From contig CANQCL010000006.1 of the NCBI GenBank assembly GCA_947589215.1, positions 1 to 64,000 of the forward strand: a stretch of DNA of 64,000 nt, written 5' to 3'. Shown here one piece after another: positions 20,116 through 25,852 of the stretch (position 1 is the first letter of the stretch; every line of letters begins with the position of its first letter). The DNA is from an uncultured Clostridia bacterium. GTDB lineage: Bacteria; Bacillota; Clostridia; Oscillospirales; Ruminococcaceae. Made by a program: the position numbers and the translations under genes. The notes beneath the pieces were generated by a model. The model was not told the DNA's origin and did no database searches. It saw only the letters and a program-made list of their open reading frames with translations.

Positions 20116-20393
20116 AAAAAACGCCTCACTCAAAAGCATAAGCTTTAAGAGACGAAGCGAAAAACGTTCGTGTTACCACTCTTATTCGGCAATGGTTTTA
20201 TGTATATCCATTACCCTCGTAAGCATCAGACAATGCTTTACTCGATAACGGGAGTTCCCGAACAAGCTTACTGAAAATTTCAGCCGTCAGCTCAGAGGTG
20301 ATAAAATACTGGTCAAGTCTTGCTGACTTGCATCGACCGTCAGCTTTCTGTAAAGACTAAAACCGATTCGTCCTCGTCACAGCTTTTATACTA
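20116..20393 (-). promoter_or_regulatory. T-box riboswitch leader of ilvB-cimA
   Basis: On the minus strand the leader has a stem-I-like region, the T-box core AAGAGTGGTAACACG (at 20183-20169) with the tRNA-pairing UGGU, and a terminator CGCTTCGTCTC ... GAGTGAGGCG followed by six T (20159-20116). UGGU pairs with an ACCA tRNA end, as in Ile, Leu and Val tRNAs. The likely specifier is ATC (Ile) at 20302-20300, before ACCTCTGAGC; this is inferred from position. The core differs from the common GGTACC form. Confidence 0.87.
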
Positions 20394-20488: not shown

Positions 20489-20502
20489 GTGTATTTCTAA
20501 TG

Positions 20503-20843
20503 CGACTAAGCCGATAAGCCGAGTTTTGTCGTGTACGGTAATCTATCTAGGCCTTATGTCGCCATAAGGCTCAAGCCCCCTATAAGCCAAAGCCTGACGA
20601 GCAGCCATTGACTTTGTACTTACCATTGGAGTTGCATCGGATAGGGTTTACATGGCAATACGGTCTCCCGCATTCCGGTGAGCTCTTACCTCGCCATTCC
20701 AACCTTACCTTGTAAAAGGCGGTATATTTCTGTTGCACTTGCCCTAAGGTCGCCCTCGACTGCTGTTAGCAGTTATCCTGCTCTGTGATGCTCGGACTTT
20801 CCTCTGAACGTAACGCCGTCCAGCTACCGCATAGCTTACTCGC
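20503..20843 (-). ncRNA. rnpB: RNase P RNA
   Basis: The minus strand carries the universal signature GAGGAAAGTCCGAGCATC near the 5' end, GGGCAAGTGCAACAGAAATA in the middle, and a 3' portion beginning GATTACCGTACACGAC. Total length about 340 bases matches bacterial RNase P RNA. It processes the 5' ends of tRNA precursors. Ends are set from the promoter (-10 at 20855-20850) and the terminator; exact termini are approximate. Confidence 0.95.
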
Positions 20844-22880: not shown

Positions 22881-23330
22881 ATGGATCATTCAAAAAAAGC
22901 CGTAGAGCTTTTTAAAAGCGGATATAATTGTTCTCAGGCAGTTTTCGGTGCCTATGCCGACGAGCTTGGCATCGACTTTGATACCGCTGTTAAAATCTCG
23001 TCGTCATTTGGCGGGGGAATGGGAAGAATGAGAGAGGTATGCGGTGCGTTGACGGGTTCGTTTATGGTGCTGGGAATGTTAGAGGGTGGTTATGACGCAA
23101 AGGATAACAAAGCTAAAGCTGAACACTACAAAAATATTCAGGATTTAGCTGATAAGTTCAGACAGCAAAACGGCTCAATAATATGTCGGGAACTTTTAGG
23201 TCTGTCTCAAAAGGATGCGGATGATCCAATTCCAGAATTGAGAACGGAGGGTTATTATAAAAAAAGACCGTGCGTTGAGTTGGTAGAACTTGCCGCAAAG
23301 AATTTAGATGAAATGTATTTTAACAATTAG
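22881..23330 (+). CDS. C_GCAxxG_C_C family protein
   Basis: A 149-residue protein with the four cysteines that name the family: C17 (GYNCSQAVF), C54 in EVCGALTG, C102 and C131. The family (TIGR01909, split-Soret-like) is presumed redox-active or metal-binding, but no reaction is established. AAGGAG precedes the ATG. It is a single gene whose 3' side passes straight into a repeat-rich region with no clear terminator. Confidence 0.85.
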   Translation: MDHSKKAVELFKSGYNCSQAVFGAYADELGIDFDTAVKISSSFGGGMGRMREVCGALTGSFMVLGMLEGGYDAKDNKAKAEHYKNIQDLADKFRQQNGSIICRELLGLSQKDADDPIPELRTEGYYKKRPCVELVELAAKNLDEMYFNN

Positions 23331-23478
23331 AGGAAAGCGGCGAGCCGGCAGGGGTGACCCCAGCTGGCAGAAGCAAGAAATTTAGAGGCAAGAAGCAAGA
23401 CCGCCGAGCCGGCGGTGGCTCTGCCAAACGGCGGGCTTAATAATTGACAATTGACAATGGAAAATGGATAATTAATTT
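23331..23478. repeat. Composite repeat region: GC-rich palindromes, GCAAGAA heptads, TTGACAATGGA units
   Basis: The GC-rich part has GGCAGGGGTGACCCCAGCTGG and CCGCCGAGCCGGCGG; the heptad part has GCAGAAGCAAG and GAGGCAAGAAGCAAGA; then AACGGCGGGCTTAATAATTG and TTGACAATGGAAAATGG. All three families recur elsewhere in the window. I see no gene in it. Confidence 0.7.
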
Positions 23479-23494
23479 TTTTTATCAAAACCCC

Positions 23495-23523
23495 TTGACA
23501 CCCCTGTCGAAATTTGTTATAAT
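23495..23523 (+). promoter_or_regulatory. Consensus sigma-A promoter upstream of the LRR gene
   Basis: Exact TTGACA at 23495-23500, 17 bases, exact TATAAT at 23518-23523. It lies about 290 bases ahead of the LRR start codon, giving a long leader. Confidence 0.9.
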
Positions 23524-23537
23524 GTAGATACTTTAAC

Positions 23538-23636
23538 AAAGGAGTGATATTTATGTGCATAAACAAACTCCCAATTTTTAACAGGGGGGGGGGCGTTAAG
23601 CCTAACCTTTATTAGTTATGCACAAAATAATTCACT
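23538..23636 (+). other. Structured leader with a G10 tract and a 20-codon reading frame
   Basis: AAAGGAG at 23538-23544 is followed 8 bases later by ATG 23553 and a 20-codon frame ending at 23615. The frame contains ten consecutive G (23584-23593). TGTGCATAA (23554-23562) pairs perfectly with TTATGCACA (23616-23624), AGTGA with TCACT forms an outer stem, and CTCCC can pair with the G run. Each change in G number shifts the small frame. Whether the frame is translated is unknown. Confidence 0.5.
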
Positions 23637-23669
23637 AATTATTTTTTTGAAATCTAGTATCGGATTTAC

Positions 23670-23705
23670 GACGTAGTTATGGCATTAGGATAACTGCGTC
23701 TTTTT
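23670..23705 (+). terminator. Terminator-like hairpin in the leader of the LRR gene
   Basis: GACGTAGTTAT/ATAACTGCGTC stem with a 9-base loop followed by TTTTTG. It lies between the promoter and the LRR start, so it could attenuate the gene. Confidence 0.7.
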
Positions 23706-23815
23706 GTATATTTGGAGGTGATTGGAAATTTTTAATATAGCAAAGAATGGCAGACGCTTTGCTGTTTGTAACGTCCTCAGTCTGCGAAAAATAATATTTT
23801 TTGGAGGAATATTTA

Positions 23816-25852
23816 ATGAAGTTTAAAAAATTAATTTCATTGCTAGCAGCTACAGCAATGACACTAACAGCAATCACTGGTGCAATGACAGCCTCAGCAA
23901 GTGAAGTTGCTAACGGTACTTGCGGAGATTTAACATGGACATTGGATTCAGACGGCAAACTGACGATTTCGGGCGAGGGTGAAATGGCTTCGCCTGAAGT
24001 TACTGATATTTCGCAAGAAAATGGTTTTGATACTACAAATGTAGCTGGACTAAAAGAATCATTAAAGACTCAATTAAAAGACTATTCTGAAATCTATACA
24101 TATAAAGAACATATGGAAAAAATAAAAGAGGTAGTAATTGAAAAAGGAGTAACATCAATAGGTTTTGCTGCGTTTTATAAAATGCCAAACCTTGAAAGTG
24201 TTATATTACCTTCTACTATTTCGGAGTTTAAAGGTATAGGGTATAGTACTCAAATTAATGATGTTGATTCACATGGTCATGGACCTATACAAGCTTATGC
24301 AAGTTTGGCATTTGCAGAGTGTACAAAACTTAAAAAGCTTACTTTAACTGAGGGTATGACAGCAATAGGAAGTATTGCATTTTATGGCTGTACAGCATTA
24401 GAGAGTGTAAGAATACCATCAACAATTAAATATGAAAAACAACCTGAAGGCGTTAATGATTTAGAATCTAATTATGGTTGGGGTCCATATTCATTTGTTG
24501 GATGTACCTTATTAAAAGATATAATACTTTCTGAGGGTTTAACTGTTATTGGTGGCTGTGCATTTGAGGATACCGCAGTAGAGAGTGTTGTTATACCTTC
24601 AACTATTGAAAATTGGGATGTTGCAGATACAAATGTAACTGTTGTACCTCCTGGATCAGTTGCGGACGGTCTTGAATCTATATCGGATATTTACAGTAGT
24701 GCATTTGCCAATTGTAAAAATCTATCATCAGTAATATTTACAGATGGAATAAAAACAATAGGAAAAGTACCATTTTGGGGTTGTACATCATTAAAGAAAG
24801 TAGCTATACCTAAATCGATAACTAATATGTATAAGTCTTTTGAATATTGTCCCGGACTACAAGAGGCATATATAGAAGATGGTGCTCAGATATCGTCATA
24901 TAACTCTGGCAATAACAGTTATTTTGATTACTCCTTTGATTATTGTGTAAAACTAAAAAAATTAGAAATACCTTCAGGCGTTGAAGTTGATCATCATAAT
25001 GCACAATGGTGCACAGGCTGCAGCTCATTAACAGATTTATATATACACGGAAAAGATTATGGTTATTTCCCGGTAGGTAATAATACGTCAAAAGTTCACT
25101 GTTATTCTGGAACTAAAACACTAGATTCATTGCTTGTTGGTGGAGTTCCAAGCGTTAGAATTGTAGATATAGAAGAAGAAATAGAAAGCGCTCAAGCAGA
25201 ACTAAACAAAGCGGTAACAGAAGCAGAAAAATATGCCGAAGAAGATTATACACCAGAAAGTTATGGTGTATTAAAGGCATTAGTTGAGAAGGCAGGTGAA
25301 TACGGAGAAGATCCAAGCATAATGTCAATGGAGGACACGACAGAGGGAATATATGCGGCAATTGATGGGCTTGTAGATAAGTCAAGCGAGCCATCTTCAT
25401 CAGAGCCATCAGATTCATCAAATCCTACAGACAACTCGTCAGATCCGTCAAACTCATCAGGCAATAACAACCAGTCACAATCACCAAACACTCCAGCTAC
25501 ACCATCTACATCTGCACCGACAACGGCAACGCCTAAACCTACAACACCGCCTAATGTTACAACAGTAGCTAAACCTGCAAAGGTAAAAGCGGTTAAGTTA
25601 AAGGCAAAGAAAAAGAAGCTTAACGTCTCATGGAAAAAGGTTAGCGGAGCAACGGGGTATGAGGTTCTGTCAGCAACGAATAATAAGTTTACTAAGGGCA
25701 AGAAGACAGTTACAGTCAAAAAGAACAAGGTGACACTTAAAAATCTTAAACCAAAGAAGAAATACTTTGTAAAGGTGAGAGCGTACAAGCTTGCAAACGG
25801 TAGGAAGTATTTTGGAAAGTGGAGCAAGGTTGTTAAGAAAAAGGTAAAATAA
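23816..25852 (+). CDS. BspA-type leucine-rich-repeat surface protein
   Basis: A 678-residue secreted protein: signal peptide (KLISLLAATAMTLTAIT, cleavage near ASA-SE), an N-terminal NGTCGDLTWTLDSDGKLTI motif typical of these proteins, LRR_5 repeats from about residue 100 to 400 (for example LTEGMTAIGSIAFYGCTALE), a helical FIVAR-like region, a Ser/Pro/Thr linker rich in DPSNSS, and a basic fibronectin-III-like C-terminus. ATG 23816 has GGAGG upstream; an in-frame TTG at 23801 overlaps that site. It is a close paralogue of the fragment at 1-936. Likely role is adhesion or substrate binding at the cell surface; the ligand is unknown. Confidence 0.88.
   Translation: MKFKKLISLLAATAMTLTAITGAMTASASEVANGTCGDLTWTLDSDGKLTISGEGEMASPEVTDISQENGFDTTNVAGLKESLKTQLKDYSEIYTYKEHMEKIKEVVIEKGVTSIGFAAFYKMPNLESVILPSTISEFKGIGYSTQINDVDSHGHGPIQAYASLAFAECTKLKKLTLTEGMTAIGSIAFYGCTALESVRIPSTIKYEKQPEGVNDLESNYGWGPYSFVGCTLLKDIILSEGLTVIGGCAFEDTAVESVVIPSTIENWDVADTNVTVVPPGSVADGLESISDIYSSAFANCKNLSSVIFTDGIKTIGKVPFWGCTSLKKVAIPKSITNMYKSFEYCPGLQEAYIEDGAQISSYNSGNNSYFDYSFDYCVKLKKLEIPSGVEVDHHNAQWCTGCSSLTDLYIHGKDYGYFPVGNNTSKVHCYSGTKTLDSLLVGGVPSVRIVDIEEEIESAQAELNKAVTEAEKYAEEDYTPESYGVLKALVEKAGEYGEDPSIMSMEDTTEGIYAAIDGLVDKSSEPSSSEPSDSSNPTDNSSDPSNSSGNNNQSQSPNTPATPSTSAPTTATPKPTTPPNVTTVAKPAKVKAVKLKAKKKKLNVSWKKVSGATGYEVLSATNNKFTKGKKTVTVKKNKVTLKNLKPKKKYFVKVRAYKLANGRKYFGKWSKVVKKKVK

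Follow-up and report, generated by a model that had tools for sequence, protein, structure and literature searches.

What can a run of ten G be doing between a promoter and the gene of a surface protein? The question arises at positions 23584-23593 of the window, by which we mean the whole stretch of 64,000 nucleotides that was analyzed, where this G10 tract turned out to be the only run of more than six G when all runs were counted. A preliminary description had proposed that the tract is a slippage site and that the downstream gene, coding for a protein with leucine-rich repeats (LRR), is phase variable. That the LRR gene varies in phase through slippage is still the best reading, supported by anatomy and comparison, which together fall short of proof. 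In our judgment the tract is quite probably a slippage-driven phase-variation switch of a leader peptide, which in turn governs a transcription attenuator.

The G tract and its leader ahead of the LRR gene

Unless stated otherwise all features lie on the plus strand. A sigma-70 type promoter is found at 23495-23523 with an exact match to both boxes, TTGACA (23495-23500) and TATAAT (23518-23523), separated by a spacer of 17, and promoter-like sequence is retained in the other cassettes described below. The G tract is located approximately 60 bases downstream of the -10 box, inside a leader ORF with its own ribosome binding site (AAAGGAG, 23538-23544) and an ATG start codon at 23553. In the present frame, with ten G, this ORF (23553-23615) has 20 codons and stops 54 nt upstream of a terminator stem. 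With 9 or 12 G the frame runs instead from 23553 to 23676, giving a peptide of 40 amino acids in the case of 9 G and ending at a TAG codon 7 nt into the terminator stem, and a peptide homologous to this one is found in all cassettes. With 11 G translation stops immediately, 70 nt upstream of the terminator. Thus the window copy with its ten G is predicted to be OFF, and to be ON at 9 or 12 G.

The tract is followed by the element TTATGCACAAAATAATTCACT (23616-23636), which pairs with the Shine-Dalgarno and AUG region at 23543-23562, and then by an intrinsic terminator at 23670-23705, the proposed attenuator, with a stem at 23670-23700 of -13.2 kcal/mol and a subsequent T5. The putatively controlled gene (23816-25852) encodes a secreted BspA-type LRR protein of 678 amino acids, for which domain searches returned a signal peptide, LRR_5 (6e-42) and an fn3 domain. 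It carries an RBS and an ATG of its own, and the terminator together with stop codons in all frames divides it from the G tract.

The preliminary description had read the promoter, the 20-codon frame with its RBS, the outcomes with nine and eleven G (a 40-codon frame and an immediate stop) and the LRR surface protein in the same way. It had also regarded such a tract as very rare in AT-rich DNA, and a hand calculation from the base composition of the window gives approximately 0.4 expected runs of at least ten G or C in a genome of 1.98 Mb, against 11 found. Absent from that description were the terminator, the repeated cassette, the helix in the leader and transcription attenuation as the mechanism.

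Between the terminator and the LRR gene, positions 23735-23795 hold a conserved 5'UTR segment with the pattern AGCAAAG..GGCAGAC..CTTTGCT..AGTCTGC, which could form an H-type pseudoknot and which is also present at L012, L015, L017, L053, L059, L065, L160-L162 and L166. No Rfam family matched this pseudoknot candidate, and when the Rfam covariance models were run against 23300-23900 no match beyond chance was obtained. Elsewhere in the window, both on the minus strand, are a T-box leader ahead of an acetolactate-synthase-like gene (20145-20389) and a class A RNase P RNA (20499-20842).

Copies of the cassette in this genome and its relatives

A pattern search combined with inspection of stretches of the 1.98 Mb genome returned 11 runs of at least eight G, all of them 10 to 12 long, so that lengths of exactly eight and nine do not occur. 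All 11 sit in copies of one type of cassette, in which a promoter, an RBS, an ATG, 30-39 bases, the G tract and a conserved motif (ACCTTTATT.GTTATGCACAAAAT or similar) follow each other in this order, with a strong intrinsic terminator wherever the contig extends far enough. On contigs that are long enough the cassette is followed by a larger gene on the same strand, and in this genome these genes encode LRR proteins, proteins of 1,000-1,600 amino acids, a secreted protein of 270 amino acids and a zinc-ribbon protein. Two of the large proteins contain FctA pilin-like domains, one of them also Cna_B.

By pattern search, cassettes with at least seven G are present in 8 of the 15 genomes of the genus, the named records of the relatives being rabbit-gut MAGs of uncultured Clostridia, and a sequence model of the cassette (R1) finds matches in 12 of the 15, up to 21 in a single genome, some of them partial or decayed. 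The model also matches five diverged cassettes from other genera of the family (L195, L197, L198, L199 and L200), all with the complete architecture and G9, and these were measured along with 53 cassettes of the genus, drawn from 11 species. When the start helix described below was made the basis of a strict pattern, matches were found in 6 of 397 genomes of the family and in none of a 394-genome sample of the order outside it, with zero matches in the controls as well; since this pattern misses many true cassettes, the absence beyond the family is only suggestive.

Chance or assembly error as the origin of the tract is ruled out by the 55 tracts that occupy the equivalent position, although any single G count may be off by one. 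Assemblies do break at such sites: contigs C9 and C27 of genome G000 begin at or near a G tract (L010 and L018), where 12 G are counted on one side and 11 on the other, and contigs C16 and C24 of G004 likewise start on such a tract or a few bases away from it, which could reflect either repeats or a true heterogeneity of tract length in the reads.

Nor are all long G tracts of the family one and the same thing, as other genera place them in promoter spacers or in coding genes. At L104-L109, L111 and L120, in other genera of the family, tracts of G10-G11 lie within the spacer between -35 and -10 (TTGACAaaatgcc-G10-TATAAT), mostly just upstream of the start of a short-leader gene resembling those of secreted proteins, an arrangement suggestive of promoter-spacer phase variation at several loci in each genome. 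Genome G191 (L095-L103) has about ten or more tracts of G9-G11, several of them apparently near the start of coding frames or inside them, possibly another set of phase-variable genes in the family.

Leader frames, terminator and the proposed switch

The stop codon that the leader would reach in each of its three frames was located with respect to the terminator stem, cassette by cassette. Every one of the 53 measurable cassettes of the genus has at least one frame that runs into the stem, 42 of them have exactly one, and the five cassettes from other genera have exactly one each. Frames that enter mostly stop 6-19 nt inside the stem or read through it, and those that do not enter stop 3-70 nt upstream. 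In dinucleotide-shuffled sequence an open frame appeared in 20-40% of cases for most groups, and the product of these probabilities over 14 diverged groups is approximately 2.5e-7, a figure that overstates the significance because the groups share ancestry. When the length of the tract is subtracted from the distance between ATG and motif all residues modulo 3 occur, and the frame is therefore set by the tract length alone and not by the flanks.

The tract itself ranges from 7 to 26 G in 55 cassettes, the longest (L165 in G010) standing far above the others. Close copies differ, as in the A2 type of this genome with 11 and 12 G, and so do orthologues, the ABC exporter locus having 10, 10, 9 and 9 G and one interrupted tract. 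From the counts, 5 of the 9 cassettes measured in this genome are predicted ON and 4 OFF, and in the genus as a whole 11 of 53 are predicted ON and 42 OFF. One species has 11 G in 10 of 12 measured copies, and all 12 are predicted OFF; the variation within genomes is therefore below the level that free slippage would produce, unless the OFF state is favoured or the copies are recent. Seven cassettes have lost the tract or carry an interrupted one, and the prediction that these should be locked ON had a mixed outcome, with two of the seven keeping an ON leader, four appearing to be locked OFF and one having lost both start and terminator.

At the level of RNA, a strong terminator with T4-T7 stands between leader and gene in every complete cassette that bears a tract, and 99.1% of its pairs are preserved over 30 cassettes, with substitutions in both arms. 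The region of the Shine-Dalgarno sequence and the AUG takes part in another helix, formed with the motif after the tract through pairings such as UGUGCA/UGCACA, UGUACA/UGUACA and AUGCGCA/UGCGCAU. This helix was not recovered by an unaided consensus fold and was assessed with a specified structure and with shuffled sequences; a majority of 21 representatives exceed the shuffles (mean z -2.3), and the signal is weak for types B and K and for L179. A partly covarying helix that buries the leader start is partly supported. Once the motif has been transcribed the helix would hide the leader start, and one may guess that in this way only the first ribosome on a nascent transcript gets to translate the leader.

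The switch that we propose would work as follows. RNA polymerase would initiate at the promoter at 23495-23523 and a ribosome would load on the leader ORF at 23553, with slipped-strand mispairing altering the number of G. In a cell with 9 or 12 G the ribosome would reach the stop codon in the 5' arm of the terminator and cover this arm, allowing readthrough into the LRR gene (ON), and with 10 or 11 G it would stop 54 or 70 nt upstream, letting the terminator fold and leaving the LRR gene off. Anatomy, conservation, frame geometry, covariation of the terminator and the repertoire of controlled genes are what is observed here, and from them we infer slippage in living cells, ribosome-driven readthrough and ON/OFF switching of the surface protein.

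Several other readings of the same cassettes have to be weighed. The tract could vary as proposed and translation of the leader could act through mRNA stability, or through delivery or coupling of ribosomes on a readthrough transcript, in place of attenuation. A leaky terminator and the short distance of only 100-280 nt between leader and gene would allow for this, but wherever a cassette is complete and bears a tract the terminator is strong and covaries, and the ON frame extends into the stem without exception, so we regard such a route as unlikely. The leader ORF might also be an independent small gene whose peptide is switched by frameshift, with the terminator merely marking its end. The core TFIxxAQN of the ON peptide does recur in most types of the genus, yet other genera keep the architecture with an almost wholly different peptide, and the core is expected to be conserved because it doubles as an arm of the start helix. 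Constraint at the codon level is not clear either, the signature in the ON peptide being weak (variable sites 18:13:10 at codon positions 3:2:1), and the cassette nearly always stands directly ahead of a larger gene on the same strand; we give the small gene a slightly lower chance still.

A recombination element, in which the tract would serve, along with the inverted repeat that surrounds it, to shuffle control regions among surface genes at the level of DNA, agrees with the many near-identical copies, with the contigs that break at cassettes, and with the chimeric cassette L179 (G002), which joins the 5' half of one type to the 3' half of another near the tract. The start helix of this chimera is weakened, and its junction suggests recombination at that place. 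Shuffling nevertheless leaves the frame geometry and the terminator unexplained, and it is invariably the coding strand that carries the G run, which makes this a very improbable account of the cassette. Long homopolymers can also slip during transcription, and at the G run the frames of the leader could thereby be mixed within each cell, in proportions graded by tract length and not as a heritable ON or OFF state. Slippage of this kind has been treated for runs of A or T (PMC1088944). It does not, however, require the lengths to differ between copies, and the known case of a leader switch acts through changes of the DNA repeat (PMC3894217), so that we see hardly any room for it. The phase-variable attenuator is the reading that we retain below.

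Known systems and the genes under the cassette

In Streptococcus gallolyticus it has been proven by experiment that repeat changes in the DNA lengthen the leader peptide of pil1 and that the ribosome then prevents formation of the terminator (PMC3894217), and in the open papers that we searched this mechanism appeared only at two pilus loci of a single Streptococcus species. The likeness of our cassettes to pil1 and pil3 is close: a leader ORF that has a promoter and an RBS contains a repeat tract (PMC3894217), the place of the leader stop, ahead of the terminator or within or beyond it, depends on the frame, and the terminator stands ahead of an operon for a surface structure, or here ahead of the controlled gene. 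The leader repeat and the intervening terminator are both present here, and at least one frame that stops before the terminator is accompanied by one that stops within or after it in 53 of 53 cassettes of the genus and in five of five from other genera. Unlike the streptococcal loci, with GCAGA pentamers, the cassettes use a G homopolymer, stand at many loci per genome before unrelated genes, have an extra helix over the leader start, belong to a different class, the Clostridia, and are known from sequence alone. As the repeat is a G homopolymer and not GCAGA, the claim is that the cassette works like pil1, and common descent is not claimed.

A G tract controlling a surface structure through the reading frame is also known from another gut commensal, Bifidobacterium breve, where replication slippage affects a tract inside a pilus gene (PMC9187656). 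Here the tract is in a separate leader upstream of a terminator, outside the reading frame of the surface gene, which sets it apart from phase variation of a coding frame. One locus in another genus (L201 in G163), with a G9 leader fused in frame to a secreted protein, resembles the coding type and has a similar start and tract. As in the amino-acid leader attenuators of the E. coli trp type, translation of a leader peptide would decide whether the terminator forms, but there it is stalling at regulatory codons that matters, and here a heritable tract length. Phase variation by homopolymers in promoter spacers occurs in several pathogens and shares with our locus a G tract near a promoter; in the window, however, the tract is not between the -35 and -10 boxes and lies about 60 bases past the latter.

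The genes that follow cassettes, almost always directly and at a leader-to-gene distance of 100-280 nt, mostly encode secreted or surface proteins, and only 3 of 30 genes next to a terminator are not obvious surface genes. The range is nevertheless wide, as judged for the following names by sequence resemblance by eye and not by family search. LytTR/GHKL two-component genes follow the cassette at L170, L172 and L181, and a GHKL gene also at L184 and L187, so that a two-component system of LytTR regulator and GHKL sensor is possibly phase variable. An ABC exporter pair is found at L158, L171 and L173-L175, and a VTC-DUF4956-CotH-like operon at L167, its first gene recurring at L176 and, with the tract lost, at L159 in the window's own genome. 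At these last three loci a c-di-GMP-I riboswitch lies between the cassette and the operon genes, which places a random switch, the G-tract attenuator, and a ligand switch in series. That the cassette stands ahead of such varied genes speaks for a portable module of control and against its belonging to any single gene family.

Taken together, we find it more likely than not that a reusable poly-G phase-variable attenuator, whose start codon is hidden by a helix, has been disseminated within a genus of gut Clostridia and runs a switchable set of genes there, with up to about 20 loci per genome that include LRR proteins, pilin-like adhesins, an ABC exporter, LytTR/GHKL systems and the c-di-GMP-riboswitch operon. 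If this is true, phase-variable attenuation would here be a genus-wide device built on a G homopolymer and plugged in before unrelated genes, and with two-component genes under the cassette the switch could flip a regulator. Annotation that ignores a leader of 20-40 codons would then miss the main control of these genes. The ON or OFF state of many surface proteins and of some regulators would be readable from the G counts in metagenomes, and the same counts would make switching testable in natural populations.
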